NCBI GenBank assembly: GCA_964019165.1
Contig: OZ025276.1
Coordinates: forward strand, 3,471,840-3,535,839
Length of the DNA stretch: 64,000 nucleotides
Reading direction: 5' to 3'
DNA from: Mastigias papua
Taxonomy: Eukaryota > Cnidaria > Scyphozoa > Rhizostomeae > Mastigiidae
Under the pieces are notes generated by a model that did no database searches, was not told the DNA's origin, and saw only the letters and a list, made by a program, of their open reading frames with translations. A program made the position numbers and the translations under genes. Positions 7,326-48,095 of the stretch are shown in pieces (position 1 is the first letter of the stretch; every line of letters starts with the position of its first letter).

Positions 7326-7345
7326 TCAGACTGTCACCAAAAAGT
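7326..7345 (-). promoter_or_regulatory. Gypsy-1 putative primer-binding site
   Basis: On the minus strand the sequence just inside the 5' LTR contains TGGTGACAGTCTGAG, which starts with the TGG that pairs to a tRNA CCA end. It begins 6 nt from the LTR edge. The same TGGTGACAG start is found in the short LTR element at 47112-48424. Confidence 0.55.
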
Positions 7346-7956
7346 TGTCACAGACCCAGAGAAATAAAGCAACAGAAATTCACTGTGTTTATATCTCTAT
7401 CAACTTAAAACTCAAGAAATATTCGCGAGTACAACACTAGGCCTAGATCTAGACTGAAGCTCTAATGATGCAAGTCTACTAGGCTTCCACGCATACGTTA
7501 CTGTCTCTAGTCTAACCTTAATGCCATAATTCCAATCTAATTCTACACTGCTTTACTACTCGTTTACATATATATAAATACAGAGTGAAAATTAGACATA
7601 AAAGTACGTAAATGCAAATTACAATTTTCAAACATTAGGAAGGGCTAGGCTGCATTATGATAGGGAATGCAACTATTACTACGTAAAAATAAGGCTAAAC
7701 CTATGTATACAAGTAAACAATGATAGAAATATAAGATGAGTAACTAGGATGATGGGCCTAATGATGCTGGGAAAATCCTGCACCTATAAAATAACAATGG
7801 AAGGGGATGCCACTGGCATGATACATTACGGTGATGCAAAGTCTATGATGTACACACAATGGGGTAAGTCATAGTAACAAAGGGAGGCTAAGAAACTCCT
7901 ATGCAATGAATGAAGAATGTAAAGATACTACTGTAATAACTAAGAAAATTGCGACA
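7346..7956 (-). repeat. Gypsy-1 5' LTR
   Basis: About 611 bp; pairs with 2054-2653. Ends TGTCACA and GCGACA, followed by target duplication CCGT. Confidence 0.93.
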
Positions 7957-18849: not shown

Positions 18850-19779
18850 CTAGTTTTTCTTAAAATCAACAAACTTAAAATAATTTATGACATCCCCAAA
18901 GACCCATTCCACTGCAACACGGACTTTGCTCATTGAGGAGTTAAAGGCAAGTTCCTCATCCGTCAAAGCCCCCCTTCTTATGATGGGACATTTTAGATGA
19001 ACTCTTTGTGGGTAAGCAGGGTCACCATAGATGCAGAGGGGATGTCTATCTTGGGAGAAAGAGTGCTGTTCAAGTTGATCTAACAGCCCTGACATTGCAA
19101 GCAACCCGCTGTCATGTCTGCGACCCTCAACTGGCCCAAAGAGGTGTGCAATTAAGCCATTCGGGGTGACAACGGATTGGAATTTAATGGCATGGACTCT
19201 TTTGTGACCATTGTAGACAAGGCGTTGATTCCTACTTGGTCTACAAATTGGTCTTACTGTTCCATCAATAAATCCCCAGCAGTTCTGAAGAGCTGCCCCT
19301 TTTGAATGTACAGCATCTGCATATTTTTCTAGATTTGCTGGGGACAGGTACGGTTGGTTCAAGTCCCTCAACAGATAACCAAACCTGGCATAAATCATGT
19401 CGATAACAGTGTTGGCTATCGTGCACAGCTGTGGAACTGGCCTGCCAACTCTTGGCACTAAATCACAGTATCGGCAAGGATAAGCCAGTCGTTTCAAACA
19501 GATGCAAAGAGCTTCAACTGCATCCACCTTCCTTCCATTATAGCAACGTATCGATTGAGGGATTCTCAGTGTGTTGACTAGGCCCTGTATATCTTTCTTG
19601 GCGAATCTAAAGTCTACCAGGCATTCACCTTCACTCATTTGCTCCAAATCATATTTATCATAATGCCAATACGGCAGATGTCAATGGAGGGTCACTTGAC
19701 GATTTAGATCATATAACATTATGAATTCCTCATTGTCAATGTCTCTCAAATGGTGCACTTCCAATAGTAGATCGTCCAT
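18850..19779 (-). pseudogene. PIF/Harbinger DDE transposase of Harbinger-2, one stop
   Basis: DDE_Tnp_4 nuclease. Conserved blocks: CWGFIDGTVRPICRPSRNQR, then YNGHKRVHAIKFQSVVTPNG, GPVEGRRHDSGLLAMSG, IYGDPAYPQRVHLKCP and SMSKVRVAVEWVFGDVINYF. The presumed catalytic acids (Asp of DGT, Asp of RRHD and Glu of VEWVFG) are all present. The open frame proper starts at 19647, but homology with Harbinger-1 and a clean ATG at 19779 (MDDLLLEVHHLRDIDNEEF) show the true start; one TGA near 19680 interrupts the frame just before HLPYWHYDKYDLEQ. About 310 codons, normal for the family. A single stop makes this a nearly intact copy. Confidence 0.92.
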
Positions 19780-21914: not shown

Positions 21915-22117
21915 TGTTATATGCTTGTTATATATCTATTACGCACTTGTTATCACTGTGGGTTCTCATACTATGCCATGACGATATTAGATTGTAAAAG
22001 AGACTATGCAAATGTTGTGTATGAATACTCAAAGCTAATCCTTGATAACTGGCCTACCACATGTGATATGTATCCTGGGGTCTGGTAACTAAGTGCATTA
22101 TGTAAATAATTAAATCA
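21915..22117 (-). repeat. Gypsy-2 3' LTR
   Basis: Matches 37169-37367 closely over the first 180 bp and less well at the outer end. TG and CA ends on the minus strand. Confidence 0.88.
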
Positions 22118-22184
22118 CTTCCCCTTTTTGAAATAAAACTATCAATAAATGTTAATATAGTAATATAGTAGCAAATGTAGCAAA

Positions 22185-24428
22185 TTAAGTAATCAAATTG
22201 GAGTCTATTGGTTCTCCATAACGTTCAGTTTGATATCTGTTTCTTGTTGATCTTCTTGGCAATTGTTTTTCGGGTGTTCCTTCATTATCTTTATGATTAT
22301 CATGTTCAATTGTTTGGTCATCAAACTTCGAATCATCATCAGCAATATGTCCATTAAACTGTTTAAAGAAAGATGCATTCTGTGTTATTTTGTGTCCATT
22401 ATACTCAGCAGTAAGTCTTGTTCCTCTAGCAGATGTAATGATATAAGGAGTTGTATTAAAATTGGTGCTTACTTTATTTCTCTTTTTCTGCTTACTTAAG
22501 ACTCTGTCTCCACCTTTTATTAATGACTCTTTTGCACCACGACGCTGATTAGCATAAACTCTTCCTTTTTCTTTCCTCAAGTCATGATTCTCTTTTGCCT
22601 CTTGATGTCTGTTAACTACTTTACACTTGCTTGGCAGTGTTGGTAAAACACCACGCATTTGACGATTGTAAAGAAGGTGTGATAGTGGTATGTTAGTTGT
22701 AGAATGAGGCGTAGATCTATAGTTCAATAGGAATTTAGATAACTCCTGTTGCCATGGTCGATTTTCAACGTGTGCTGCTTTGATTGCTTTAGAAAGGGGC
22801 TTATTGAAAGCTTCTACTTCGGAGTTGCCTTGGGGCCATAATGGAGTAGAATGATGATGCTCGATCCCAAGTTGTTGCATGTATCTTTTAAATTCGTCGC
22901 CTTGAAACGGTGAACCGTTATCAGATGTTACTTTGACTGGTACTCCATGACGAGCGAATATAGTGTCGAGTTTAGGAATCACTTTTACTGCAGATGTAGA
23001 TTTAAGAACTTCTATTTCTGGAAATCTGGAGTAGCAATCTATAACGACTAGAATGTGGTGACCAGAAGGAAAAGGGCCACAGAAGTCAACTTTTACATGT
23101 TCTCATGGATTGCTTGACATGGGTGGTGACAACAACGGTTCTGGTGGGTTGGGCTGCGCTACTGATTGACAGGCTAAACAACCCTCAATTTCTGATTTGA
23201 CTTTCTTACCAAGTTGTGGAAACCACACATGTTCTCTTACGAGTGCTGTTGTCTTGGAAAGTCCTTGGTGTCCTTGGTGTGCCAGTTTGATAACCTGGTC
23301 TTGCAAGGAGTCTGGAAGAATCAACTGTGTTCTATGAAGAAATACATGGTTTACATGATCAAATGTAATGTCATCTTTGATCTGCTTGTAAGGCTTTAAA
23401 CGATCACCATTCCAGAAACCGGTTTTTAATGCTGCATTTAATGCTCTAAGAGTGCGATTGTCTTTTGTAGCATTTTTGATTTCGTCTATTGTCAAGGAGG
23501 CTGGGACCGCAGACTTAGCAAGAAAATTAACGTATTCCTCTGCTATGTTGCTCTGCTCTTTTGATTCGATTTTCACAGGGTGATTTGAGAGATAATCTGC
23601 GGGATTATCTGCACCTGCTTTATACACCACTGTAAAGGCATATTGTTGCAGCCGTAACATCCAACGCTCGATTCGTGCTGGTGGTTTGGATATTTTATTG
23701 CCATAGATAAGGTCTAGTGGCTTATGATCCGTATATAATATGAATGGAGTGCCATATACATATATATGGAAATGTTCGATACCCCAGACAATGGCAAGAG
23801 CTTCTTTTTCTGTCTGTGAGTATCTACTCTCTGTGTCAGTCAATGCTCTGCTGGCATAAGCTACGATTTGTGACTTGTTTGTCTTGGGATTTCGCTGGGC
23901 AAGAAGTGCTGACAAACCTACGGGGCTTGCATCTACAAGACTTTGTGTCTGTTTTGTAATGTCAAAGTAACTCATCACCAGGCTGTTTGTTAAAGCTGTT
24001 TTTAGCTTTTCATAAGCTGCCTGATGTTCATTTGTCCACTGAAATGGCGTGTCCTTGCAAGTCAATGTACAAAGAGGCTCTGTAATTGTGGCAAAATCTT
24101 TACTGAACTGTGCACTATAGTTTGCCATTCCTAGAAGACTTCTTACTTCACTAGCTGTCTGAGGCTGTGCAGTGTTGACAAAAGCTGCACTTTTGTTGGG
24201 ATCTGGTTGTGATCCTTTTTCTGAAAACACAAATCCGAAAAACTCTAAATTCTTCTTTAAACATTCACATTTTGTGATATTTAACTTAAGATTGTGTTCT
24301 TGTAATCTTTGTAAACATGCTTTCAGTGCTCTATGATGTTCATCTCTTGTCGCAGCAAATATTATGATATCATCGGCCATATTTTTGACTCCTTCAAGTC
24401 CTTTGAGAACATCAGTTAGTGTGTGTTG
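22185..24428 (-). pseudogene. Gypsy-2 pol, distal part: RT end, RNase H, integrase
   Basis: The piece opens in the RT palm: LKGLEGVKNMADDIIIFAAT carries the ADD form of the YxDD box. RNase H follows, with SLVDASPVGLSALLAQ, then EKEALAIVWGIEHF and TDHKPLDLI. Integrase zinc domain: HQGHQGLSKTTALVREHVWF and GCLACQ. The core has VIDCYSRFPEIEVL in a different ORF, VTSDNGSPFQGDEF, and HHSTPLWPQGNSEVEAFNKP with the catalytic Glu. A single TGA near 23102, where the family has Trp (SSNP then EHVKVDF), is the only visible stop between RT and the end. The sequence resembles the K02A2.6-like Gypsy group. Confidence 0.92.
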
Positions 24429-24432
24429 ACAT

Positions 24433-24735
24433 TAGACAGGGCATACACGACAACAATCTAACAAAGTGGGTAACTTTTTGTTTTAACATTGATTTTGGTA
24501 CTTTAAGGCCTGGAGAACAAAAGTAGCCCATGGGCCTTTCCACATTTTTGGTATTTTGGGCGTGGCTGATGATGTCATCAACTAATCTTTTTTGCGCCAC
24601 TACAGTCTAACAAATTGAATAACTTCTTGTTTTAAAGTTTGCTTTGGCACTTTAAAGTACAGGGAACACAATTAGCTGATGGGTTTTTGAAAATTTTCGT
24701 ATTTTGGGTGTGGCTGATGACATCATTTCTACTTA
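24433..24735. repeat. Left TIR of the long-TIR transposon
   Basis: Pairs with 35098-35392. Two sub-repeats: CAATCTAACAAAGTGGG near 24456 and CAGTCTAACAAATTGAA near 24604, each followed by CTTTTTGTTTTAA or CTTCTTGTTTTAA and ending in TTTTGGGYGTGGCTGATGA. Confidence 0.9.
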
Positions 24736-24987
24736 CGATAGATTTTCTATCTTATTTGTACATTTTTCACTGTGGGCAGACCACAACAATAATATTTATA
24801 CAATGTAGAAGAATATTTGCAGTTGGTGCCACAGCTGCCAAGTATGGCTGACACAGCTGTTCTGTGTAAAACAAAACTATTCATGACACAGTTGCAGAAA
24901 GTTAATTGCTCAAGTTGATACTGAAATTCTTTGCCACACGTTTCAGTCATGAAAATAAGTGTGCAGCAAAGATGATACTTTTACAGG

Positions 24988-25280
24988 ATGGCTTTATCCA
25001 AGTCTGTTTTGAGTTTGGAATCTGACAACGAAAAGAAATGTATATTATGCGAGGGAAAAAGTACGCAAAAAGATAAGGCACATGCGTTGTCAAACAAAGG
25101 ATGGGATTATCTGAAAGAACTGGCACAAGTTTGGAAGCAGATCAACATTGATATTGAGGATACATTTTACTTTTTTCGAGATTTTCATCATAAAATTTTT
25201 AACAAGACAGAAGCATTTGGAAGTGTTCACAATAGTTGCAGATTACCTTTCAGAACAAAAGCTGAGGCATACTTGAAGAG
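24988..25280 (+). pseudogene. Exon 1 of the long-TIR transposon gene
   Basis: ATG at 24988 opens MALSKSVLSLESDNEKKCIL with a CxxC motif (CILC), then about 95 codons to RTKAEAYLKR. The frame ends at a consensus donor AAGAG|GTATGTAAG whose downstream half now lies at 30231, because Gypsy-3 landed across the junction. In family relatives known to me this region begins with a zinc-binding CxxC and an H-x-C further on; here HNSC is present. The product cannot be made normally from this copy. Confidence 0.7.
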
Positions 25281-25281
25281 G

Positions 25282-25429
25282 TGTTGGAAGAACCCCCGTG
25301 ACGTTAAATTCGTTGTTGCGCAATTCTTTATATATATATTTTATGTTGATTTATAATTATTCATTCAGCGATAGTTCTCATTCGAGTGACTATAAGAAGT
25401 ATTCTCATTGCGTTTCGACTACAGTTACA
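25282..25429 (+). repeat. Gypsy-3 5' LTR
   Basis: TGTTGGAAGAACC to CTACAGTTACA, 148 bp, identical by eye to the 3' copy. Very short for the group. TATA-like run at 25329-25343. Confidence 0.97.
25329..25375 (+). promoter_or_regulatory. Gypsy-3 core promoter and predicted RNA 5' end
   Basis: A TATATATATATTTTA box is followed after about 30 bp by ATTCAGCGATAGT (25363-25375). That distance is right for a Pol II start. The 13 nt are the exact reverse complement of the sequence just after the LTR, which suggests that the transcript begins here. The start itself is inferred. Confidence 0.6.
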
Positions 25430-25431
25430 TT

Positions 25432-25444
25432 ACTATCGCTGAAT
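25432..25444 (+). promoter_or_regulatory. Gypsy-3 putative self-priming site
   Basis: ACTATCGCTGAAT, two bases after the LTR, is where a primer-binding site should be. It has no TGG for a tRNA CCA end but pairs perfectly over 13 nt with 25363-25375 inside the LTR. In Tf1 and sushi elements the first nucleotides of the mRNA fold onto the primer site in the same way. Confidence 0.7.
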
Positions 25445-25450
25445 CTAAAA

Positions 25451-26371
25451 ATGGAGGTTAAAACTCTAGTATTCAACGGCGAAGGTGACGTCAGAGATTT
25501 TATAACAAAAGTCGAGTTATATTCCGCGTTAAAGGGTTATACTGAGGAGAAATGCGCTCAGAACCTAGCAAGCCGCTTAGAAGGGCCCGCTTTTGACGTT
25601 TATTTACGATTAAATCAAGAAGATAAGAAAAAGGTTAATAGGTTAAAAGAAGAACTGTTAAAGGAGTTCGAAAGAGGGCAGCTTAACCGTGTAGAAGCTA
25701 TTTGCACCCTAGCGACTCGAGTTAGAAAACCCGGAGAATCGGCGCATACGTATGCCTACAAGTTATTGGAGCTAATCAAGCTTGCATACCCGGACTTTAA
25801 TAGTCAGACACGTTCAACGATTGCAAAGGACTATTTCGTCCGTGGGCTTCACAGAGACATGCAAACGGCCTTGAAATCGATGGAAAAGTTTGAATCATGT
25901 GATATAAACGCTCTTGCCGATGAGGTAACACGCCTACAAATCGCTGGTATCAAATCTAATTTTCATGCTGCCCCCCTCGCAAGCTCGCATAGTGTCAACG
26001 CTACTGGCACTACCATGGCTGATGACATGTTAAATTCAATTGCAGAAAGAGTTGTTGAAAAATTAACAAATCTATCAATACATCAAGAAGACGGAGGTAA
26101 TGATCCCTATCATCCGACTGTCAATGCTGCAGCTAATGTCGTGGCAACTTTTCCATCGAATCCTCGAGGAGGTTACAGAAATTATTCAAGTCAACGTAGG
26201 GCCCGGGGAAATTCACGCGGACGATACCGGAATTATCCAGCCCAGCAGCTAAAATGCAGATGTTGTAAGAGTTCTGACCACTTAGTCCGAAATTGTCCCA
26301 CTCGCTTCTGTCAAGCTTGTGGGCAACGTGGGCATGATAGTAAAGATACAGCCTGTCCTAACTATCAATGA
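25451..26371 (+). CDS. gag: Gypsy-3 Gag
   Basis: 306 residues from ATG 25451 (MEVKTLVFNGEGDVRDFITK). This is the first ATG after the LTR, 22 bases downstream; the same frame is open further upstream but lies in the LTR. The first 200 residues have the capsid-like helical pattern of Ty3/Gypsy Gag, with a YAYKLLELIKLAYPDF segment near residue 105. An Arg/Gly-rich stretch (residues about 240-270) precedes two zinc knuckles: CRCCKSSDHLVRNC, which fits CX2CX4HX4C, and CQACGQRGHDSKDTAC, which has six residues before the last Cys and is atypical. The frame ends in CAA UGA CUA, and pol continues in the same frame. Expected to form cytoplasmic virus-like particles; that role is from family knowledge. 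Confidence 0.95.
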   Translation: MEVKTLVFNGEGDVRDFITKVELYSALKGYTEEKCAQNLASRLEGPAFDVYLRLNQEDKKKVNRLKEELLKEFERGQLNRVEAICTLATRVRKPGESAHTYAYKLLELIKLAYPDFNSQTRSTIAKDYFVRGLHRDMQTALKSMEKFESCDINALADEVTRLQIAGIKSNFHAAPLASSHSVNATGTTMADDMLNSIAERVVEKLTNLSIHQEDGGNDPYHPTVNAAANVVATFPSNPRGGYRNYSSQRRARGNSRGRYRNYPAQQLKCRCCKSSDHLVRNCPTRFCQACGQRGHDSKDTACPNYQ

Positions 26372-26377
26372 CTAACC
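26363..26377 (+). promoter_or_regulatory. Stop-codon readthrough site between gag and pol
   Basis: TAT CAA TGA CTA ACC. UGA followed by CUA is the best-known leaky stop context in animal cells, and a CAA codon before the stop also favours readthrough. The frame after UGA is open without a break for 1,231 codons and contains no early ATG, so readthrough is the simplest way to make Gag-Pol. Confidence 0.8.
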
Positions 26378-29300
26378 GTATTTGACAATATCAAACCAGG
26401 GGAAGAATCGCGTTCCGTTGTTATCGCCGCAAAGCTTCATAATTTTAATACTCACGTGATGTTGGACACAGGATCGGGAACATCCGTTATCGATTTAGGT
26501 ACGCTACGCAAAATAGGTCTAGACGAACATATAGACAAGTCATCGGCTAAAATGTTGATTAACGCTTCGGGAGATCATATGGAAATAATCGGCTCAGTTA
26601 CCATATCAGTAACCATTCCGGGGAGCCATCCACTCAACCAAGCTTTCCAGGTTCTTGATTCCCTTTCATATTCGAATATTTTACTTGGGAGGGACTTCAT
26701 GAGACAATTTGGTACTGTGAGCTTTGATTTCAACAAAAATAAAATTGAATTAGGGAATTTGTCTATAACAGGGCTGACAGCATCGAGTACTAAGGTTCGA
26801 TTATGTGAAAATTCCATCGTCCCAGCGCGATCCGAAAAGGTCCTTTTTGTGAAATGTTCAACCTTCAATTCGTTGCTTGAAGGAGACTTTGAACCACATA
26901 TGGTACCGTTTATTAGAGGTCTTTATGCTAACAGAACTCGTATCATACCGAATATTGAGGGAATATTTCCTGTAACCGTTCTTAATGTCACAGCGTCAGA
27001 CATCCATTTAAATTCTCGAAAAATAATGGGTTCCATACATGCGGCAAGCGAATCAGTAAAAAGTACTGTTGGAAGTTACAACGAGAGTATTGAATTGGGA
27101 AACGTTGCAATTAGTGACCAATTATTACCGGCTGAGAAAGACCGTTTACAGTCGTTACTAGGAGCATACAAGGAAGTTTTTGCCGAAAACCCGAAAAGTC
27201 CCAAACGAACCGACATTTTAGAACATAAAATCGTTACTAATGATGCATTACCTGTGTATCGTAAACCTCGACGAGTTCCAGTCGCCTGGGAAAAAGACAT
27301 AGATCTGCAAGTTACTGAAATGCTTGCTAATGGGATAATTCGCCCTTCGTATTCGCCTTGGAATGCTCCGGTTTTGTTAGTTAAAAAGAAAGATAACAGT
27401 ACTCGTTTTGTCTGCGATTTTCGTGGTGTTAACGACATTACAAAAAAAGATACGTACCCATTGCCTCATATCAAGGATGTAATTGACAAGATGGCGGGCT
27501 CTAAATACTGGTCCACTCTGGATGCTGCATCGGCTTATTGGTCGATTCCTTTATCTGAAGCGGATAAGGAGAAGACAGCATTTGCAGTCCCTCGAGGAAA
27601 ATTCGAGTTCAATGTTATGCCATTTGGTCTCTCCAACGCTGGCGCTACCTACCAGCGCATGATGGATATATGTTTGGCAGGTTTACGAACTGATAAAGTC
27701 CTTTCATATATGGATGATATAGTGATTTTTAGTAAAACATTTGACGAGCATATTCGAGACCTAACATCCGTGTTCGATTGTTTACTAACCGCCAATGTAT
27801 CACTCAAGGCATCAAAGTGCGTTTTTGCGGCCGAAAAAGTTGATTTCTTAGGTTTCGAACTTTCTATCGACGGAATCAAACCTCAATCACGTTTAACAAC
27901 AGCCATAAATAACCTACCGAGCCCAAGCTCTAAGAAGGAGTTAAGACGATTTTTGGGCATGGCTGGATTTTACAGAGCCTTTATTAAGGATTTCGCTACG
28001 ATTAGCCAATCACTAAATCGACTTACTGGAGACAATGTTCCATTTGAGTGGGATTCCAATAGTGAGGCAGCATTTAATAAAATCAAACAATATCTCATGT
28101 GTAAACCACTTCTTGCCTTCCCTCTCCTTCATCAACCATTTATCGTGGAAGTTGATGCGAGTGATTATGCTGCGGGAGGAGTATTGTCTCAGAAGGGTAT
28201 TGATAATGTCTTACATCCAATTGCATACTTTTCAACTTCTTTCACTGGCTCTCAACGTAACTGGGCCCCAATCGCTAAAGAAGCTTTTGCGTTAATACTA
28301 GCTGTTCGTCACTGGCATGTATATTTGCTGGGAACCGAATTTATACTGCGCTCGGACCACAATCCTCTCGTCCATCTCCGAAAACAAAAAGACCCCCGTG
28401 GGAAATTTAGCCGTTGGATTGCAGAATTAGAGGAATATAATTATACTGTCCAGTATATACCAGGTAAAGATAACGTTAAAGCCGATTTGTTGTCTCGTAA
28501 TCGTGCTGCAAATGAACAACAGCCGCAATCGTCGTTCGAGGACAAAATTTATACAATTGACCATGGTGCTTTTATTGAACAATTGAAATGCGAACAAGGT
28601 GTCGACCCAGTGATTAGTATTAACAAAAGGCTGGTGCAGAACGGAGAACCTATCATTCAAGGTAGATTAAAGCGTGTTCGAAATCAGCTTAGAGTAGAAA
28701 ATGATCTCCTGACCAAATCCGGCCGTCCGCTTGTCCCTGGCACAATGAGAAAGTTCGTAGTTAGTAAGATTCATAACTCGGCTCATCTTGGCACAGATAA
28801 GACTTATGCACAATTAAAAGAACGTTTTTTTTGGCCTAACATGTATGGGTATGTACGAAACTTTATCTCTCATTGTTCCATCTGTCAACAAACCAAATGT
28901 GATTCCTATCCACCAAAAGCTCCTCTTTCTCCAATGGCAATTCCAGAGGCCCCGATGCAATTTATTTCACTGGATATTGCATTTATGCCGAAGGACCATC
29001 AGGGCTTTCAATACTTTTTAATTATAGGGGACATATTTTCGAAGTACCTTACTGCGGTTCCACTTAAGGATCAGACGGCCCCTGTTATTGCGGATGCTTT
29101 GTTGTCATACTGGATTTACATTCACGGAGCTCCTTACTACCTTCTTAGTGATCAAGGTTCTAATGTCGATAGTGTCACCATTAAAGAAATATGTAATATA
29201 CTCGGTATCGAAAAACGTCGTTCATCGGCATACCACTCACAGGGCAACGGATTCGCTGAACGAAATATACGAAGCATTAAAGACATTTTACGATCAATTC

Positions 29301-30067
29301 TATTGGCGCGAAACCTTCCACAGCATAAGTGGCGAGCCCTGCTCCCAGAAATTGCCTTTGCTTTGAATACCTCCATCAGTAAAGCTACGAAACATATTCC
29401 ATACAACATCGTTTTTGGTAGGTCCGCACGTTTACCGATTGACGTGTTGTTTAACGATAATGCATCCCCAATCGCTGATCCTACCACTCCGACGGATTAT
29501 GCTCAAGAACGATATTTGATTCTTCGTGATACTTTCAATAGTGTCACCTCGAAGTTACACCTCAACCAACTACAAATGCAAGCTCAGTATAACAAACATA
29601 TTCATTTTCACGATTATAAGGAGGGGGAGAAAGTATGGTTAAAAGTCAAGTTCTACAAAACGGGAGAAAATCGAAAATTAGCTCCTAGACGCAAAGGTCC
29701 ATGGACAATATTACGGAAACTCCCTAATGGTGTGAACTTCGAAATTCTTAACGAAAAAACATCAGAAAAGAAGATTGTTCATCATGATAGACTTTGTCCG
29801 TGCAAATCGTTTTTAGATGGAGACCACAAAGTAGTTAGTTCTGATATTCGTATCAAAGACCCGCGGGCACACCACACTATTGTCTCCTTTGAGAGTTCTT
29901 CCTCAGAAGAAGATAACGATGCCAGTAGTGACATTTCCATCGAGTTGGCATCAGATGTAGAAGATTCAGATGTAGACAATCCTACACCTCCTAGACAATT
30001 CCCAAGAAGAGAGAGACGAGCTAGACAATTGCCTGATAACATCCCATGGGATGCTATCAGAATATAG
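26372..30067 (+). CDS. pol: Gypsy-3 Pol (protease, RT, RNase H, integrase)
   Basis: Open in one piece in the gag frame. Protease: MLDTGSGTSVIDL at about 26456-26500, with LLGRDFMRQFG downstream. RT: FVCDFRGVNDITKKDTYPLP, FNVMPFGLSNAGATYQRMMD, and YMDD at 27707-27718, the intact polymerase box. RNase H: VEVDASDYAAGGVLSQ near 28150 and RSDHNPLVHL near 28350. Integrase: zinc domain with His codons at 28772 and 28784 and the CSIC pair near 28875-28885; catalytic Asp at 28973, Asp at 29150 (SDQGSN) and Glu at 29258 (GFAERNIR). The C-terminal part has a GPW motif (RRKGPWTILRKLPNG) but no chromodomain, then an acidic Ser-rich region and a basic end. All catalytic residues are present. No separate ATG suits a pol-only protein, which supports translation by readthrough. 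Confidence 0.95.
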   Translation, partial: LTVFDNIKPGEESRSVVIAAKLHNFNTHVMLDTGSGTSVIDLGTLRKIGLDEHIDKSSAKMLINASGDHMEIIGSVTISVTIPGSHPLNQAFQVLDSLSYSNILLGRDFMRQFGTVSFDFNKNKIELGNLSITGLTASSTKVRLCENSIVPARSEKVLFVKCSTFNSLLEGDFEPHMVPFIRGLYANRTRIIPNIEGIFPVTVLNVTASDIHLNSRKIMGSIHAASESVKSTVGSYNESIELGNVAISDQLLPAEKDRLQSLLGAYKEVFAENPKSPKRTDILEHKIVTNDALPVYRKPRRVPVAWEKDIDLQVTEMLANGIIRPSYSPWNAPVLLVKKKDNSTRFVCDFRGVNDITKKDTYPLPHIKDVIDKMAGSKYWSTLDAASAYWSIPLSEADKEKTAFAVPRGKFEFNVMPFGLSNAGATYQRMMDICLAGLRTDKVLSYMDDIVIFSKTFDEHIRDLTSVFDCLLTANVSLKASKCVFAAEKVDFLGFELSIDGIKPQSRLTTAINNLPSPSSKKELRRFLGMAGFYRAFIKDFATISQSLNRLTGDNVPFEWDSNSEAAFNKIKQYLMCKPLLAFPLLHQPFIVEVDASDYAAGGVLSQKGIDNVLHPIAYFSTSFTGSQRNWAPIAKEAFALILAVRHWHVYLLGTEFILRSDHNPLVHLRKQKDPRGKFSRWIAELEEYNYTVQYIPGKDNVKADLLSRNRAANEQQPQSSFEDKIYTIDHGAFIEQLKCEQGVDPVISINKRLVQNGEPIIQGRLKRVRNQLRVENDLLTKSGRPLVPGTMRKFVVSKIHNSAHLGTDKTYAQLKERFFWPNMYGYVRNFISHCSICQQTKCDSYPPKAPLSPMAIPEAPMQFISLDIAFMPKDHQGFQYFLIIGDIFSKYLTAVPLKDQTAPVIADALLSYWIYIHGAPYYLLSDQGSNVDSVTIKEICNILGIEKRRSSAYHSQGNGFAERNIRSIKDILRSILLARNLPQHKWRALLPEIAFALNTSISKATKHIPYNIVFGRSARLPIDVLFNDNASPIADPTTPTDYAQERYLILRDTFNSVTSKLHLNQLQMQAQYNKHIHFHDYKEGEKVWLKVKFYKTGENRKLAPRRKGPWTILRKLPNGVNFEILNEKTSEKKIVHHDRLCPCKSFLDGDHKVVSSDIRIKDPRAHHTIVSFESSSSEEDNDASSDISIELASDVEDSDVDNPTPPRQFPRRERRARQLPDNIPWDAIRI

Positions 30068-30078
30068 GGAGGGGGAAA
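30067..30078 (+). promoter_or_regulatory. Gypsy-3 polypurine tract
   Basis: GGGAGGGGGAAA immediately before the 3' LTR, overlapping the last base of the pol stop codon. Confidence 0.85.
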
Positions 30079-30226
30079 TGTTGGAAGAACCCCCGTGACG
30101 TTAAATTCGTTGTTGCGCAATTCTTTATATATATATTTTATGTTGATTTATAATTATTCATTCAGCGATAGTTCTCATTCGAGTGACTATAAGAAGTATT
30201 CTCATTGCGTTTCGACTACAGTTACA
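30079..30226 (+). repeat. Gypsy-3 3' LTR
   Basis: Identical by eye to 25282-25429; followed by target duplication GAGG. Confidence 0.97.
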
Positions 30227-30370
30227 GAGGTATGTAAGAATCTTATTTGAATGCCAAAATTGTTTAATTGGTGCCAGCAGAGTTACTGGATCAGCTTCAC
30301 AAATTGATTATTAAGGAAACTAAATTCCAGGTTATTTACAATGTTCCTTTTACTTTTGAGAATTTTTCAG

Positions 30371-31640
30371 GTATGGAAAAGTACAAGAAATATTTCAGTA
30401 TATTGACCACGATAAGGAGCAATCTAATGATATTGTTGATTATCCCATGCATCCTAGAGCCAAGCGTGATCTGTCAAAACCCAAAGTAATATGCTTCATT
30501 TGTCAAGAAATACGTACAGTAGATTCAAATAGATATGAAGATGGTGGTTTGGCACGATGTTCTCACATCAAATCAAGAGATCGACTTGTTGAAAGAGCAG
30601 GGGTATTTTTGTCTATGCCAGATCATAAGTTCAATGCAGCAGCAAACCGCTTAAAGATATTGGAATCAGGCCAGTCTTTTGACATATTTTCCATTGATGT
30701 ATATTATCACCAGTCTTGTTACGTAAAATTTGCATTAAAACCTGTTTCCAAAGAAGAAGAATCTGCTGTAGAAGCATTGCAAAAGAGGGAAGAAATAATG
30801 ACAGATTTTTTTAGAGCAGTCTGAATAAAAATTTTGAGGAAGAAAGAGGCTGTTTTACTTCACGTGATGCTAGCTGATATTAAGAGCTTTAGTGAAGAAT
30901 ACAATCTGCCGCCAATAATGGAACACACTGTAGACCTTAAATGAAAACTGATTGCAGAGTTTGGTGATGAAATTAGTTTTTCCCATCTGGAAAAAATTTG
31001 ATCGTTCATGCATCCAGCATCAATCCATGTCAATACAGCGTTGCCATTTTACAAGGTCGTTGTTTGAGGGACGACAATTTTGTTAAATCATTTTCAAGTT
31101 TTATTAGACTGAAAGCAAAATGCATGGCAATGTCAATACAAGAAAAGAATAATGAATCTCCTCAACATTTAGTAGATATGCTTGATGGAGGTCCAATGCA
31201 GGAGCTTTACAACGTTATTTATGCATCACTCTATACTTCTGAATACCAGTTGAACGAGTCTGGCTATGCTGTTACAAGCTCGAACAACATGGCTACAAAG
31301 ATCTGGTCTCTTGCATCTGACTGGGAGTCTCTGATAGCAAAAGAAAATTCAGCCAAGCAGTTGATTTTGGGACAAACAGTACATCGAATTACAGCCAGCA
31401 AAGAAACTATAAAGAACCTCCATCGTTTAGGACATACAGCATCCTACAACGATATATTAAAACTGAACAAGCAGTGGTCCAAGATGGTATCATCGACGCC
31501 TTCAAGTTTTGCGAAAGGGTTCTTAAGAGGAATACCTGTGCACTCTTCAATTGATAATAATGACGGCCGTCAAGAGACCTTTACCAGAGCTGGGACTACT
31601 CACGACACCAATCGAACACTGTTCCAACCGATCATTTCAG
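30371..31640 (+). pseudogene. Exon 2 of the long-TIR transposon gene
   Basis: Acceptor TTTTTCAG ends at 30370, and exon 1 joins in frame to YGKVQEIFQYIDHDKEQ. A second CxxC (CFICQ) follows, then YYHQSCYVKF. TGA stops interrupt at 30822-30824 (after FFRAV) and after HTVDLK near 30943, and the frame shifts near 30995; coding-like sequence continues as VHASSINPCQYSVAILQG and YCLRDD-type signature RCLRDDNFVKSF. The exon ends at a GT (31641) after FQPIIS. Length about 420 codons. The conserved blocks match a large uncharacterised TE-like protein family known from many invertebrates. Confidence 0.65.
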
Positions 31641-31733
31641 GTTAGAATATCATAAAGATTCAAAATAATTTTTTTTGCATACAAATATGTCATTAAGTCA
31701 ATGTTATCTTTGACCTTTATATTTTGTAAACAG
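31641..31733 (+). other. Predicted 93-bp intron in the long-TIR transposon gene
   Basis: Starts GTTAGA and ends TTTGTAAACAG. Splicing keeps the frame (S then VHAPVITTYLDEP). Stops occur in the intron in the reading frame. Confidence 0.6.
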
Positions 31734-34700
31734 TTCATGCTCCAGTTATTACAACTTACCTTGATGAGCCGTGTGATGACGAACTGATAACTGCAATGCC
31801 AGAATATTTTATTGGACAGCGGAAACCACCCGGCAACTTCGAGAACCATAAGGATGCAGAGAGTGTCAATATTTTAAATGAAAGTTTAAACCAAGATTTT
31901 GCTTGGGCAATAGCCAATGGAGTCCCATCCGAAGAGGAATCACTGCCATTGCTGCGCTCGTGGACAGCTTTCAACGGAAAAACAACTAGTGTAGACCAAA
32001 ATGCATCAATCGTGAAATACATGCCCGTGATTCCCGAACCTCCTTCGTATGCCGTTTGCAAAGAATACTTGGAAACACTTAAACATATTGCCGAAGAGTT
32101 AAATCTTGACCATATATTTGCACACGCGGATGAACAAGTATATGCACAGCTTGCCCAAATTATCTGGAAACACGGAGAGTATTACAAAACTGTGATCATT
32201 TTAATGGGTGGTTTTCACCACTTGCGAGTGGCACAACGATTACTTTATAAGCGCTTTGGGTGTTTGGGCTACAAAGAGTGGTTTATTGATGCAGGAACGA
32301 TTGCATCTGGCTCAGCAGACAAAGCTTGCGAGGGCAACCACTACTACAGATCTATGAGATTACACAAAGAAGGGTTTGATGCACTGGTACAATATCGTAC
32401 AGAGCAGATTATGGAGAAATACACAAAGGTGGATACTGATTTGTTGAAGAACCTGAAAGAACTAAGACGCTAACCATCCACTGCAGCGTTGCAAGCAGTA
32501 ACGTGTATGGAATCTTTTAAAGTTTTGAAGAATGACATAATGGCAGTGACTGGGACACAAAGCAAAATGACTATCCAGTATTTGAAAGATGTCTCCAACC
32601 TATTAGCTTTGGTTTCAGCAGTAAGAGAAAACAACATCGAAAAACATCTTCAGGCAGAAAGACAGATGCTTAAACAAGTCTTTGCTTTTGATCACCACAA
32701 TTATGCTCGGTACCTTTCATATCAGCATGTTTTTCTCCGAGAGCTTCAAAAAAATGGTCACCCAGCATTTAAAGATCTTGTTAACTATGGCTATGGAGCT
32801 AACCTTTCTGGGCAGAAGTTTGCAAGTATTCACGACGATCTGGTTACAGAACTGTACAATCGTGAAACAAAGGGTACCGCTGGACCTTTTCGTTCAGGTT
32901 ATAGTACTGACATCCAGGCTACAAATACATGGGTTAAAACTACACATATTCATGTCAGACTTTGTGTTGCATTTAGAGAGAAGCTACGTCTAAAAACATC
33001 ATGGGTTCACAAAGAACTTACTGACTCTGGGAAGAAACGTCATAAACGCAACGTTGATAATCTCACAGTAAAGCTACATTCCTACCAAGTAAATCCATTT
33101 GAAGAAGGACATGCACGGACTATGACAACTGGAGTTGAAATAGATTGTAATGTAGTGAAAGGTCTTATTGATGCTACAGATAGAGGAAACCTTAGATACA
33201 CAGAGTTTATCGAAGAACGTCTTGTCAGTGGAAACAAAAGTATTTTTGATCCAATTAAGAAAGAGAAATTGTTAACTGGAATGGAGAAAAAGAAGAAAGT
33301 AGCAAAGGCTCTTTCATTACTAAAGGAGGATCGCCAAGCATTTGGGTTACTTGTAGCAAAAGCCATTAGCATTGAAGAAGCTTTTCGGTTTCCAGTGACA
33401 ACTTTGCCTCTCAGCTTAGCAACTCCTGAAGGACAACTATGCCAATCCGACAAGGCCGTTCTCCGAAACTTCTTGGCATGTGAGTCAAATGCACTTACCA
33501 CGGAATTTCCCACAGATGCAGTATGGCTAATTGATGGGATGGCTGCTTTTAGATCAATAAAACCAAAATCCACATACGCGGAATGGTTTCTTCACGTGTT
33601 AAAATCTGTTACTCCAAGCTGTGATGCAAGGCCTAAAAAAATAGCTCTCATAAATGACACCTATAGACCTGATAGCATAAAAGCAGGAACAAGAGAAACA
33701 AGAGGCGCATCTTCAAGAAGAGTTTATCTACAAGGTTTTAATCAAATGCAGCTCCAAGGTAGAGAATGGCAAGAGTTCTTTAATAATATCAAGAACACAG
33801 AAGATCTTATCCATTTGGCAGCAACATTTTTCAAATCTGAAGACGCAAAAGCCAAGCTGAAATTGCCTCTTGTTCTAACAGATTGAGAAAAGACATGGCT
33901 AATTGAAAATAATGTATCCAAACCAATGTTTGACTGTAATCACGAAGAAGCCGATACCAGGTTAGCTTTACACGCATCTTTGGAGGAATCAACTACTGTT
34001 GTTGTGGCAAAAGACACCGATGTACTCATTCTTCTCCTTTATGGTCACTTGAAAACAAACCCAAAACATCAATGGTTCATGAAAATTGATCATGAAAAAT
34101 TTATCAATATTGCAAAGGTTCGTCACTATATTGGAGATGAAATATGTGAGATACTGCCACAATTACACGCCATCACAGGATGCGACTCGACTTCATACAT
34201 GTTCAATGTGGGGAAAGTCAGGGTATTGAAACAAAGTATCAACAATCCAGACTTCATTGAAGTAATTAAAGGAATTGGTGAAAAAGCTACACTTTCAGAA
34301 GAGATGTTAGAAGACGCCAAAAAATTTATCCAAACAGTCATGTATGCAGGAAAAGTTAACGAAAGCTACGTGGATACAAGAGTGCGTTTATACAAAGGAA
34401 TGAAGCAAAAATCTTCAGTCAGTTTGCCACCTGATCCAGCATCAGTCAAACAAGCAATTTTACGAGTGCACTTGCAAGCTTATAGTTGGAAACAGTGCCA
34501 GAAACTGATAGTGTTGGAGCTTCCACTGACAGAATATGGATGGGTGCGTAGTGAAGATAATAATACTCATATTAGGCCATTGTGGTATGAAGGCAATCAG
34601 CTTCCTCCATCCTTGAGAAGACAGAAAAGAACAAGAAAAAAGAAACAAGTTTCAGACAGTGCAAATGATGAAAGTGATAGCATCGATAAAACAGAGCTGC

Positions 34701-34927
34701 CACCAACAAAAAAAGTGAAAATAACAAAGAGTAAAAAAAGTCCTGCTATTGACAGTGCGCATTACGACACAGGTTGCGAGCTTCCTGACATTGCCCACAA
34801 TGATTTGAAAGTAAGGGAGCAAGAGAGTGAATCAAGGTCTTCACAATGGGAAAGCGATTTTTCGTCATCTGGTGACCAGGACAGCTCGGACAGCGATTAT
34901 TTGCCATACTTGTATTATTTGTTTTGA
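31734..34927 (+). pseudogene. Exon 3 of the long-TIR transposon gene, two stops
   Basis: About 1,060 codons in one frame with only two stops: TAA at 32471-32473 (after LKELRR) and TGA at 33884-33886 (after LPLVLTD). Conserved-looking blocks: HIFAHADEQVYAQLAQIIW, then IILMGGFHHLRVAQRLLYKR, EGNHYYRSMRLHKEGFDAL, FDHHNYARYLSYQHVFL, NHEEADTRLALHASLEE, AKDTDVLILLLYGHL and HAITGCDSTSYMFNVGK. The HEEADTR and DTDV acidic clusters look like a metal-dependent nuclease core, which is inference from pattern only. A Lys-rich nuclear-localisation-like stretch and acidic Ser/Asp tail end the protein. This region is the bulk of the gene and the likely enzyme of the element. Confidence 0.7.
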
Positions 34928-35097
34928 TTGAACGGTTATTTATATTTCTGTTGATATTGTTGTTGTGGTAAAAAGTCCGGTGATTTCATCTGCATACTAC
35001 AGACTGCTAGTATACTAAAAATGTTCTTCTGATTTACACTTTCTTTAAAATTGTATGCAAGTGGAAAATTCATCGTAAACGTTAAACTATTAAACAT

Positions 35098-35392
35098 TGA
35101 TGACATCATCAGCCACGCCCAAAATACGAAAATTGTCAAAAACCCATCAGCTACTTTTGTTCCCCGTACTTTAAAGTGCCAAAGCAAACTTTAAAACAAG
35201 AAGTTATTCAAGTTGTTAGACTGTAGTGGCGCAAAAAAGATTATTTGATCACGTCATCAGCCACGCCCAAAATACCAAAAATGTGGAAGGGCCCATGGGC
35301 TACTTTTGTTCTCCAGGCCATAAAGTACCAAAATCACCTTTAAAACAAAAAGGTACCCACTTTGTTAGATTGTTGTCGTGTATACCCTGTCC
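35098..35392. repeat. Right TIR of the long-TIR transposon
   Basis: Inverted copy of 24433-24735, including both sub-repeats, with about one difference per ten to twenty bases. Confidence 0.9.
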
Positions 35393-35396
35393 ACAT

Positions 35397-36046
35397 ATCT
35401 CTGCTGCTGACTTCGTTCCATAAGTAAGTCGTTTATATCGGTACAGTCCAGCATGGGTAGTGAATGTTGTCACGCCCCGACTCTCTGGTGATAACTGTAA
35501 GTGATGGTAGGCTTGTGACATATCCAACTTTGAAAAGAACTTTGCACCAGTCAATTCCATGGATATATCTTTTACTGTTGGTATGGGATGGCGTATCTGT
35601 TTGATTGCAGTGTTTGCAGCTCTCATGTCCACACACATGCGTATTCTACCATCCTTTTTTGGTACCACGACTATTGGCGAAACCCAGTCCGTATGTTCCG
35701 TATCAGGTACTTTCTCAATAATATCTTGTTTCTCGAGCTTCTGTAACTCCAAGTCCACCTTGTCTCAAACATGAAAGGGAATTCTACGTGTCTGTTGATC
35801 AACTGGTTTCACTTCTTTGTCTATGCTGAGAGTGATTTGCTTATCTTTCAGTTTGCCAATACCATGAAATACTGTCTGATGTTGTCTTATGATTTCTTTT
35901 GTTTTTAAGTCGGGAATGTGATCCAGGTCCGGCAATTGACTGTTCTGCATTGTAGACACTTGAATTGTGTTCAAATTCAAGCTCACAAGTCCTAATTCTT
36001 GTGCAGTCTTTGAGCTCAGCAAGCAACCTCCGTTGTCTGCCGTCAC
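35397..36046 (-). pseudogene. Gypsy-2 pol, proximal part: linker and RT start
   Basis: The minus strand reads LGLVSLNLNTIQVS, then a break (TGA after RRIPFHV), then RT: PIVVVPKKDGRIRMCVDMRA, PIPTVKDISMELTGAKFFSK, LDMSQAYHHLQL with one catalytic-site Asp, and LTYGTKSAAEI. It is cut after AAEIC by the long-TIR transposon and continues at 24428 with the next residues, QHTLTDVLKG, once the duplicated ACAT is counted once. Confidence 0.9.
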
Positions 36047-36070
36047 GTAGATGGTAGCAACATTAATCTT

Positions 36071-37150
36071 TCACTTGGTTTCAAGTGTTGCAAGAAACTT
36101 TCCTTTTAGGTGCACGGGGGTCTTTGAAGTAAACGGCATCGCTTTGATATTGGTCTTTTGTAAAACAACACTTGTCAATGTCTGCATGTAGATTTTATTA
36201 CTGATTACATTGATTGAGGATCCCATATCAAGCAAGAAATTAATCATTTGACCGTTAACGCTAATGTCCATATGAGGCTTTGACGTATAACCCTTTGTTT
36301 CTACCATATAACAGTAATCAAAATCGCTGTCGGAATCGACGTTCTCTGCTGTGCTCACTGGACGTACGGCAGCGCTCTGCAGGGCTGTTTGAGAATGGAT
36401 TACTTTTGACCGACATACTTTAGCAAAGTGATTAAGCTTTTTGCAGTTTCGACATGGTTTACCCTTTGTGGGACAGTCAGAATGTCGATGGGGCCATACT
36501 CCACCACAAGTACAACAGGTTTTTCCTTGACTGTCTCTGGAACCACTGCATTGGGTTGGGTTTGGTTTCTTCTGAAAATAACTTATGTCTTCGGTCTCTT
36601 TACCCGCAATAGCTGCTGCTTGAAAAGTACTCATTTCCTCCTGACGCCCAAGAAGTAATAAAGTCTTTAATGTCATTTGATTGTCGCGCAATGCTAGCTT
36701 ACGAAGGCGACTTGACGTGCCATGCAAAACGATTTGCAACATGATTTCAAAATCTAGGTCATGAAAGTCACAGGTTTCCCCTAAGCCACGCAAGCAAGTG
36801 TGAAATGTATCAATGTTCTTGTTAGGCTCTTGTTTGGCTTGTCAAAATGTATATACCTCATAAACTCTATTCGTTTGGGGATCAAAATACTCGTTTAGTT
36901 TGGCCAGAGCTGTGTCAAAATCAGCATCGCCACCAGTGTCCGGTAATTGACGAAATATGTCTCGAACGCGGGGACCAGCGAGAAAAAGCAACATTGCACG
37001 CTTACGTTTTGCGGCAGTTATATCATTCGCAACTAAGAATGTGTTAAAATCACATACCCATAACTTCCACCTTGGAGCTACGCTTGCACTGATGTCCGTA
37101 TCAGGATCGAACGGCGGCATGTGTAACGTGAAAGTGGTAGCTATAGCCAT
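36071..37150 (-). pseudogene. Gypsy-2 gag and protease
   Basis: Start ATG at 37150 (MAIATTFTLHMPPFDPD), 18 nt after the primer site. Capsid region: WKLWVCDFNTFLVAND and FDTALAKLNEYFDPQTN. A TGA interrupts after VYEVYTF (near 36840). The nucleocapsid part has CCTCGGVWPHRHSDC and CRNCKKLNHFAKVC, two zinc knuckles. Protease follows with INFLLDMGSSINVIS, where the usual DTG or DSG is DMG, a likely inactivating change. A stop after FLATLETK separates this from the RT linker. Confidence 0.88.
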
Positions 37151-37151
37151 A

Positions 37152-37168
37152 GTAATTCTCGTCGCCAA
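37152..37168 (-). promoter_or_regulatory. Gypsy-2 primer-binding site
   Basis: On the minus strand TTGGCGACGAGAATTAC follows the 5' LTR directly. TGGCGACGAG is a familiar primer-site start in animal Gypsy elements. Confidence 0.7.
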
Positions 37169-37367
37169 TGTTATATGCTTGTTATATATCTATTACGCAC
37201 TTGTTATCACTGTGGGTTCTCATACTATGCCATGACGATATTAGATTGTAAAAGAGACTATGCAAATGTTGTGTATGAATACTCAAAGCTAATCCTTGAT
37301 AACTGGCCTACCACATTTGATATGTATCCTGGGGTCTGGTAACTAATTGCAGTATGTACTTACTACA
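37169..37367 (-). repeat. Gypsy-2 5' LTR
   Basis: 199 bp, TGTTATATGCTTG to TACTTACTACA on the plus strand; followed by GGGTC target duplication. Confidence 0.88.
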
Positions 37368-44449: not shown

Positions 44450-45530
44450 TGACAGGGATTAGCAAGGGGAAGGATGGATGTATATACTCACGTCAAAATG
44501 TTGCTTTCCGAAATATATCTTAGCTGCTTTCCTATGTTATTACGCAGCAAGCTTTTAAGCTATTGTGGCTTCAATACTTCAACAGCCAAGCAAGCAAACT
44601 CTTAAAATACAAAGTTCTTGCAAACACAGGATATACTCTGCTCAGTTACATAGCAAACTACACCTTCCACAATCTGTTCAAATTCATAGCTTGGCTGCCT
44701 CAATAAGAGCTAGAGGATTGGAAAACTTTCCACAAGTAATATGGGGGAGGGGACAGTAATTAGGTACCAAATAGTACAATATCAGACCTCAAATGCACTA
44801 GTCCAGAGAAAAGGAAGGAGACAAGGTTCCCTTCAGTTTGACCTCTTTGTTCACTTGGTGAAAAGGCACTTCCACAACAAATAATTTTTCTCACAATACT
44901 CTTTAGGGCACACCAGTGCATACAGAGTGCAACCATTAGACATGAAAGCCCGGTTATGGATTACTAAGGTAGCTTATAACTAACACAACATACAAACAGT
45001 ATTGAAGAATAAGCATAGAACGCTCCCATAAAATTCACAAAGGGACAAAGAATACAAAGTATCCTATCACGCCACCTGAATAGTAGCAATATAAGATATA
45101 ATAAATAAATGGTAGACCTACTCCAATTCAGCACGTTACATTATTTTCCATAGAATTGTCCAGAACCATTTATCCTGTTTACCCTCTTAACAATCAGAAT
45201 AAATTGGCAGTTGGAGTTAGTGAGGGACGGATGTATTTATACACTCATGTTTAAATATTACCTTCCAATATACTTCTAGGCTGGTTTGCTTGGTTTTTAC
45301 GCAGCAACCTCAGTTGCTATTATGCCTTCAATACCTCAACACCCAAGCAGGAAAACTCCTATTATAAGCGATCCTTGCCAACAGACATTATTCTTCGCTC
45401 ATTTATATAAGCAATACGTCCTCCACAATAGTTCAAATGTAATTGCTGGGCCGTCTCAATAAGAGCAACAGGGTTCGAAGACTTTCCAACATCACTTAGA
45501 GGTGAACATTGTTAAGTAGGTACCGCATTG
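44450..45530. repeat. Diverged copies related to the satellite border
   Basis: Sequence from about 44450 to 44890 matches about 45210 to 45630 with many differences (shared landmarks: GGATGTAT, ACGCAGCAA, CTTCAATACTTCAACA or CTTCAATACCTCAACA, TCACTTGGTGAAAAGGCACTT), an offset near 757 bp. The second copy merges into the first satellite unit. Confidence 0.7.
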
Positions 45531-46454
45531 TAAAAGCGCATATATCAGTTGCACCATTCCAGAGAGACAAAAGACAAAGAGGGTCTCTTCTGCATGACCT
45601 CCTCAATCACTTGGTGAAAAGGCACTTGGCCCACAGATCACTTTTGGTAATATAGTTTGGGGGTCTTTCCAAGTACACGTACTTTATTATACGGTGAACG
45701 ACGATTAGACAGTAAAGCTCCATTTGGATTATCGCAGTATCTGTACCTTACACAAAATATCGCAAATCTTGATGGATTACCGGGACATTCCGCAAGTATA
45801 CACAAAAACGCTTGTGTCACATTAAAAAAGGACAATCAAGACGAATTATCTTATGATGTTAAAGTACTATCAGCAATACACGATTTGGTAAATATACAGT
45901 GCAGATACATACTTTATATCGACCAGAACACGCACGCTATCTCACGCTCTACTTCTACGGGTGTTTTCCCAACCCCCAATTCATATGAGGACTAGCCAAG
46001 TTTTTAATATATTCTACAAAAATTTCTGACACAACCATGCAAAAGAGTTATGCTAGTGAGTCTGAATTTCCTCTATCACAATATGCAAGCAGAGATTTAT
46101 TTGTGCGATTATTGTGGCCATAACGAAATGATAAGGGAGCATCATTTTCAGAGATCCTCATTTGAGGTTTCTTATGAAAATACACTGATACTATATTAAA
46201 TCACTTTCCAAATCCCCTAATTTAGCCCAGTCCCCTATATTAGTTGTTCTCGAGAGGACGGACTCCAGCCCTCAGGCGTGTTATACACCCTCTCACTTTT
46301 TTGGGGGCTAAGACTATAATAGCAGTTGCTATCAACTCCATGAGTTAACTCTCGATTCAGAGATATAAAGCTAATATTAGATGATTTCCATACATTACTG
46401 GTCAAGTGAGGATTCAAGGCTTATATATAGGGCAATTGACCAAAATAACAATAA

Positions 46455-46705
46455 TCCATTATTTATAAGTTTTTGATATGGGCTCAGAACCTACAGTATT
46501 ATCCTCAAGGTAACAAGCAGTTTGATGACTTATCAGGACATTCATCTAAGTCATCCAATGGAACAATCTAGTAGCCGAGCTTGGATGTAGGGAACATTTT
46601 GACTTTAACATCCTGTCCAGCTCACCATGTCTCCAATAGAATGAGTATTTGCGCGCATAGAATATGTAGCCTACTCTTCTGTACCTGATTGCCATTGTAA
46701 GAGCG
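46455..46705. other. Non-satellite segment inside the array
   Basis: About 250 bp that matches no other unit, followed by a partial unit (46706-46825) joined out of register. It marks a rearranged, older edge of the array. Confidence 0.6.
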
Positions 46706-47111
46706 CATATATCAGAGATATAAAGCTAATATTAGATGGTTTCCATATATTACTAGTCAAGTGAGGAGTCAAGGCTTATATATAGGGCAATTGACCAAAA
46801 TAACAATAATCCATTAATGTAAATGTAAAAGCGCATATATCAGTTGCACCATTCCAGAGAGACAAAAGACAAAGAGGGTCTCTTCTGCATGACCTCCTCA
46901 ATCACTTGGTGAAAAGGCACTTGGCCCACAGATCACTTTTGGTAATATAGTTTGGGGGTCTTTCCAAGTACACGTACGTTATTATACGGTGAACGACGAT
47001 TAGACAGTAAAGCTCCATTTGGATTATCGCAGTATCTGTACCTTACACAAAATATCGCAAATCTTGATGGATTACCGGGACATTCCGCAAGTGTACACAA
47101 AAACGCTTGTG

Positions 47112-47440
47112 TGTAACGATTTGAGGTTCTTTTAATAGCGTTGAGGGGACACGCTTAGGCCCAAAGGCCTAAGCTCAGACAAGCGCAACAAAACACGACT
47201 TCTTTCTATGCGAGTATGTAATCTAACTAACTAATCATATGGATTCATTCGATAATATAATAAATCGTACGGTGACACAATACAGATAAAAATCACTTAA
47301 CACATTCGTAATTAAACATAGCACGACATTGCAAGGAGACTGTACGGTAACACCAACATGGAAACAGGAAACACAATTCACAATCACATATGACATCTAC
47401 ACAACTTGTACTGTACACGACTTCAACCCAGGACGTTACA
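47112..47440 (-). repeat. 3' LTR of the short element in the satellite
   Basis: Contains a perfect hairpin, GCTTAGGCC, CAAA, GGCCTAAGC, at 47153-47174, present in both LTRs. Confidence 0.92.
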
Positions 47441-48095
47441 CTCTCCCCCCCGTTAACGGAAAATTTTACTGTTTAAAATTGAAGTGTTCGAGCAGTCCTA
47501 AAAATAAAAAACAAAAAGTCCAAAGTCTGAGAAGGCCCTGAGGCAAAACTCGGCAGGCGAAGGTAGTGCCTACAACATCACCCGGTGTTATCCGACTTCT
47601 TCACAGCAAACCTTTGGAACTAAAAATCCATAACATCAACTTAGAAAAGTTCCCTCTAAACTGCAACACGTCTATTCGCAGTTTCCAACAGATGTCCATA
47701 ATCAAAGTAAACGACATACTCTAAACTTCAGCATTGAAACGTTGTAGTCCGAAAACGGTGTAGAGTGAAGATGTACCAGGATTTAAAATCGCAACTCGAA
47801 CAATAAAAAACAATCCATGTTTGCGTTCTAATCAATAACAGCATAAACAGCAAATGTTGTCCAGCAGTGCTGCACACGAAAAACAACTATCACAATCGCC
47901 TTTTTCTAGCATTTGTTTTCAGCCCCGGCAATGATATATACGAAACATGCGATACCAGAATCGCCTCTTTCCCCTCCAAAAAAAGACCAGAGTTCGTGTC
48001 GAATATGTCACCAAAGTCGCGGTTTCAACCTTGCAAAAACAACCAATCCAGCCATCCAAAGTCCCCTAAAACGCTATCCCAACTCTGTCACCAAT

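Follow-up and report, generated by a model that had tools for sequence, protein, structure and literature searches.

A chromodomain-less Ty3/gypsy element that probably primes reverse transcription with the 5' end of its own RNA

The stretch of DNA analysed here (64 kb, referred to as the window) contains a Ty3/gypsy element that probably primes reverse transcription with the 5' end of its own RNA, judging from its sequence. The proposed primer-binding site (PBS), ACTATCGCTGAAT at 25432-25444, is the reverse complement of ATTCAGCGATAGT at 25363-25375 in the 5' LTR, the proposed self-primer, which would form the first 13 nt of the RNA. Both segments are read on the plus strand, as is the element itself. 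The most likely reading appears to be Tf1-like self-priming in a separate clade of Ty3/gypsy elements that have no chromodomain. The Tf1/sushi-type layout put forward in the original prediction is supported by the geometry of the two segments, the lack of a TGG-type site, the position of the promoter and indirect co-variation among relatives.

The element is probably an intact and young Ty3/gypsy insertion. In a base-by-base alignment the 5' LTR (25282-25429) and the 3' LTR (30079-30226), each 148 bp long and bounded by TG...CA, are identical, and GAGG is duplicated at both outer LTR ends as a target-site duplicate (25278-25281 and 30227-30230). The identical LTRs, together with the open reading frames, suggest that the insertion was recent. 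From one LTR end to the other the element measures 4,945 bp. A repeat reaching 25446 at 95% identity, seen in a first repeat scan, was ruled out, as identity in the alignment stops at 25429. The gag ORF (25451-26371; 306 aa and a stop) runs from an ATG at 25451 to a UGA at 26369-26371. This UGA is followed by CUA (26369-26374) and is a candidate for readthrough. The pol frame (26372-30067) follows on from gag with no shift, and two database proteins, P0001 and P0003, read through the UGA site as W or G. A domain search of the pol ORF identified protease, RT, RNase H and integrase, and found no chromodomain. A polypurine tract (30066-30078) adjoins the 3' LTR. Features typical of Ty3/gypsy elements are thus present in the LTRs, in the protease-RT-RNase H-integrase order and in a gag zinc knuckle, the match to the last being below the Pfam cut-off (16.1 versus 20.8 bits), and the best PDB relative of the element is Ty3 Gag-Pol.

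Direct sequence comparison confirms the predicted 13-nt reverse complementarity between 25432-25444 and 25363-25375, which is exact and stops at 13 nt on both sides. Within the window the PBS-side 13-mer occurs once on the plus strand, while the plus-strand occurrences of the LTR-side 13-mer are those in the two LTRs only. The PBS begins 2 nt after the end of the 5' LTR, following a TT spacer (25430-25431), and so occupies the primer-site position claimed for it and lies outside the LTR; there is no second PBS after the 3' LTR. The LTR segment had been described as lying about 30 bp past a TATA run, and the run (TATATATATAT, 25329-25339) is indeed found 24-34 nt before A25363, the proposed +1. 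The initiator-like motif TCATTC spans this position (25361-25366), and we take it to be an initiator with A25363 as +1. The register of the complementarity is not arbitrary: one arm lies 2 nt past the LTR and the other at A25363 within TCATTC.

The mechanism that we propose would run as follows. Transcription would start at A25363, as the TATA run and TCATTC suggest, and the first 13 nt of the RNA would fold back on 25432-25444, a pairing for which the complementarity is observed and the folding is predicted. RNase H would then cut after nt 13, by analogy with Tf1, where the cut falls after nt 11, and this would provide the 3' end of the primer. With the TT and U5 as template, RT would make the minus-strand strong stop and then continue via R to the 3' LTR, and the TT spacer may correspond to the 2 nt beyond CA that are left for integrase trimming.

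The lack of a TGG-type tRNA site, also part of the original prediction, holds for the 40 nt that follow the LTR, where the sole TGG is at offset 22, within the gag start ATGG. No tRNA gene was found in the 64-kb window. A minus-strand gypsy element in the same window (LTRs 21915-22104 and 37169-37358) has TGG 1 nt after its LTR, and another gypsy element (LTRs 2052-2648 and 7344-7951) has it 4 nt after. Among relatives of the element, the codons rule out TGG at LTR +0 to +3 in 13 of 13 cases, and at LTR +4 to +8 it is still allowed only in P0181 (+4) and P0188 (+6) of these 13.

The relatives were studied through their proteins. Searches of viral contigs, with pol and with a 29-row alignment of pol proteins, returned no DNA of relatives, and a search of genome contigs likewise returned no relative. 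The gag-type proteins (P0121-P0277) number at least 157 distinct sequences, including the window's own (P0121), and were drawn from the best 120 of 203 and the best 120 of 170 matches. In some relatives the predicted Gag starts upstream of the true start and so translates the LTR/PBS region, which allows the two arms to be sought among back-translated codons. Nine relatives, besides P0121, have an extension that covers both arms. The PBS was set after CATT, 2 nt past CA, and the primer was sought 55-90 nt upstream; where the codons allowed several CATT sites (P0121, P0181, P0190, P0233, P0256, P0257), the window-like place was chosen. At the alternative CATT sites a match of at least 13 nt arose only in the window's own row (a run of 17 at 79), which is an artefact of degeneracy because the DNA of that row is known. 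Outside the nine, the extensions of P0130 (shared by P0214 and P0218), P0122, P0195 and P0188 reach the PBS and fall short of the primer, and P0216, P0160 and P0148 have no usable extension.

A perfect 13-nt complement is allowed in six of the nine relatives, at separations of 63-78 (69 in the window). The joint solutions are ATTCTGCGATAGA in P0132 (separation 73), RTTRTGYGCNAGR in P0181 (72), ATYCTNAGRCART in P0198 (67), ATTCTGTTGAAGT in P0204 (78), AYTCNGCDATACA in P0256 (68) and ATTCKGTTATAGA in P0257 (63), all 13/13. Two more relatives reach 12/13, P0190 at separation 72 with an odd C-A pair and P0275 at separation 70 with an odd T-G pair that is a possible wobble. P0233 fails, at 10/13. 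CATT is compatible with its codons at the LTR end, with no TGG nearby and no self-complement at the expected distance, and its primer or its geometry may be a different one.

When each protein was shuffled, 13/13 was obtained in 0-6.8% of 400 trials across the nine relatives, and the probability of at least six of nine under these shuffles is 4.2e-9. The window's own row was left out of this count and gave 13/13 in 75 of 400 shuffles (18.8%). Primers and PBSs exchanged between relatives matched in 4 of 72 combinations versus 6 of 9 for own pairs (Fisher p = 4.7e-5); leaving out P0190, a near copy of P0181, the figures are 3 of 56 versus 6 of 8 (p = 2.9e-5), and with the window's own row included the swapped pairs matched in 7 of 90. 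Free placement of both sites has low power, and in nine of ten rows, the window's own among them, the best run was equalled in 21-270 of 300 shuffles. A 22-nt run in P0130 (0 of 300 shuffles) is given no weight, as its start-to-start distance of 40 does not fit the geometry. The test geometry was chosen after several matches had been spotted by eye and free placement was mostly unremarkable, and we therefore regard the evidence from the relatives as good but not blind.

The joint 13-mers of the six passing relatives differ from ATTCAGCGATAGT and from each other at several places, which means that, provided the pairing is real, the two arms have been altered jointly. A comparison of P0181 with its close relative P0190 allows one T-A pair to have become C-G, a change on both sides, and one PBS position in P0190 is altered relative to P0181 with no change in its partner, which counts against strict co-change. 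The co-variation of the two segments that had been predicted is therefore partly upheld by the back-translated sequences: six of the nine relatives pass and two come within one pair, set against the failure of P0233 and the one-sided change in P0190. CATT at the LTR-PBS junction is permitted by the codons in 13 of 13 relatives checked, a figure that is partly built in because the CATT motif was used to place the site. The primer start can read TCATTC in P0198, P0204, P0256 and P0257 and cannot do so in P0132 or P0181. The six share 43-56% gag identity with the window's Gag and fall three and three in the two halves of a 150-row gag tree with a midpoint root. Judged by their back-translated codons, relatives across the gag tree thus appear to retain the layout while their 13-mers differ and change jointly. 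These observations bear on the possibility that an unusual tRNA site, matching a half-tRNA or an internal tRNA segment, primes the element and that the complement in the LTR is incidental. Half-tRNA priming is known for Ty1/copia elements, according to the available parts of PMC6317226. We nevertheless consider a tRNA primer unlikely here: there is no TGG near the LTR, the match between LTR and PBS is exact and in register, and the back-translated letters of the PBS vary and yet six of nine relatives allow a complement in the LTR, a pattern not expected of a fixed tRNA.

Priming by the element's own RNA is also consistent with the predicted fold of the leader. In the 88-nt leader from A25363, a 13-bp panhandle encloses a 6-bp U5 stem, whose left arm is at 25386-25391 and whose right arm, at the LTR end, is at 25423-25428. 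The free energy of this fold is -21.3 kcal/mol (z = -2.5), and 3 of 200 shuffles were equally good. The panhandle is dominant in predicted folds up to 160 nt and again at 250 nt, and is mostly lost at 200, 300 and 400 nt (mean pair probability 0.07, 0.11 and 0.05). No convincing third duplex, of the "pretzel" kind, was predicted beyond the panhandle and the one U5 stem. A hairpin in the leader could also serve packaging, dimerisation or control of translation, with something else acting as the primer. Co-change in the two arms of such a stem would look identical to what is seen here, and a hairpin of unknown role is conserved near the LTR of fungal GalEa elements, according to the accessible text of PMC5445492. 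The placement of the arms makes this reading quite improbable, one being at the place expected of a PBS and the other at the predicted 5' end of the RNA, and no other PBS candidate was seen in the 21 nt that separate the LTR from the gag start.

Chance complementarity is the least credible explanation and very improbable. In its favour, random 168-nt stretches of the window reach a match of at least 13 nt in 8 of 50,000 cases; against it, the register fits exactly at the LTR end as well as at the predicted start, and the signal is seen in relatives too. When the LTR was shuffled by dinucleotides and compared with the 20 nt that follow it, a match of at least 13 nt was obtained in 5 of 50,000 shuffles (about 1 in 10,000). 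The chance of the match is 1.7e-8 for one fixed register, and 1.9e-5 if 136 LTR registers and 8 PBS starts are allowed.

Self-priming of the Tf1/sushi type had been predicted for an element with no chromodomain, and none was identified. A Chromo domain gave no match in the element's pol at E up to 1, and none was found at E up to 0.1 in any of 29 aligned pol proteins (the element and 28 relatives). Weak SH3_Tf2-1 matches occur in 24 of these 29, that of the element scoring 16.1 bits, below the cut-off of 30. The pol search returned 2,052 matches, of which the best 120 were examined. Among these 120, the named matches are from the pseudoscorpion Cordylochernes scorpioides (30-35% identity), and PF00385 is carried only by P0116 (32% identity). 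P0116 falls far outside the query clade in an RT-to-IN tree of 52 rows (54 less 2 dropped as too short), a tree with no named Tf1/sushi reference in it. The element works like Tf1/sushi elements in the reading that we prefer and is not assigned to the Tf1/sushi group. It may alternatively be a chromovirus that lost its chromodomain, which the tree allows because it included no named Tf1/sushi reference. We lean towards the view that a large and diverse chromodomain-less clade of Ty3/gypsy elements, found chiefly in genome and environmental assemblies, has exchanged tRNA priming for a 13-nt primer that is fused to the initiator and co-evolves with the PBS.

The closest parallels are Tf1 and Tf2 of Schizosaccharomyces pombe, in which the 5' end of the RNA also complements a PBS just past the 5' LTR. 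The complement is 11 nt in Tf1 (available text of PMC7175516) and 13 nt in this element. A U5 duplex with the PBS-adjacent LTR end is a further likeness, predicted in our case. As described in the available parts of PMC10085805, Tf1 and Tf2 differ in having a chromodomain and a three-duplex pretzel, and Tf1 requires the three duplexes; in our element no chromodomain was found, and no clear third duplex. The same source gives a chromodomain for Tf1, Tf2, Tosmo1-3, Tcry1 and Tj1, so that the latter elements of other fission yeasts also differ from ours in this respect. Tj1, Tosmo1-3 and Tcry1 resemble it in their proposed self-priming and in an in-frame UGA-CT between gag and pol (PMC4600332, PMC10085805, as far as available), a context that PMC10085805 calls readthrough-prone, and Tj1 is of similar length (5,003 bp versus 4,945 bp). 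Self-priming rather than tRNA priming is also predicted for Tcn1 chromoviruses and for plant TAR elements (available text of PMC6317226), a comparison made by description only; Tcn1 is grouped with the Tf1/sushi chromoviruses and TAR belongs to Ty1/copia. The fungal GalEa elements with their Conserved Hairpin Site likewise have an inverted repeat near the LTR and no tRNA-type PBS. They differ in being Ty1/copia elements, in having both arms past the LTR and in that the authors did not find a complement in the LTR, according to the accessible parts of PMC5445492.

The literature surveyed, in the portions available, links self-priming in Ty3/gypsy to chromoviruses of the Tf1/sushi type. That survey, from which subscription papers were mostly absent, did not yield a description of self-priming for any Ty3/gypsy clade that lacks a chromodomain, and a literature search for self-priming retrotransposons in arthropods gave no match. 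If the clade lies outside the chromoviruses, self-priming either arose independently of Tf1/sushi or was ancestral and lost elsewhere. A separate chromodomain-less clade would show either that the switch from a tRNA primer to the element's own RNA can happen repeatedly or that this kind of priming is more ancient than had been supposed; the available text of PMC3601003 suggests self-priming as a possible trait of the ancestral LTR element. Promoter, primer and PBS would form one coupled 13-nt unit, the co-change of which across relatives is directly testable. Annotation tools based on tRNAs would presumably score such elements, wrongly, as having no PBS.

The element is the innermost part of a three-level nest (21915-37358), in which the minus-strand gypsy element, with LTRs 98% alike, contains an element with inverted ends, which in turn contains the element described here. 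The inverted ends of the middle element are 292 nt long (24435-24726 and 35100-35391) and 94% alike. The empty site of the innermost element, reconstructed by eye from 25262-25281 and 30231-30250, reads GAAGAGG|TATGTAAG, and from these letters the insertion looks to sit at a 5' splice site of the host element's gene. Elsewhere in the window, two minus-strand open frames at 1071-1736 and 18850-19680 resemble each other and are reminiscent of Harbinger-type transposases. The 14 copies of a tandem-like array at 45391-63924 are for the most part spaced at about 940 bp and for the most part about 99% alike, and some are set further apart, by gaps of 1.3-3 kb.
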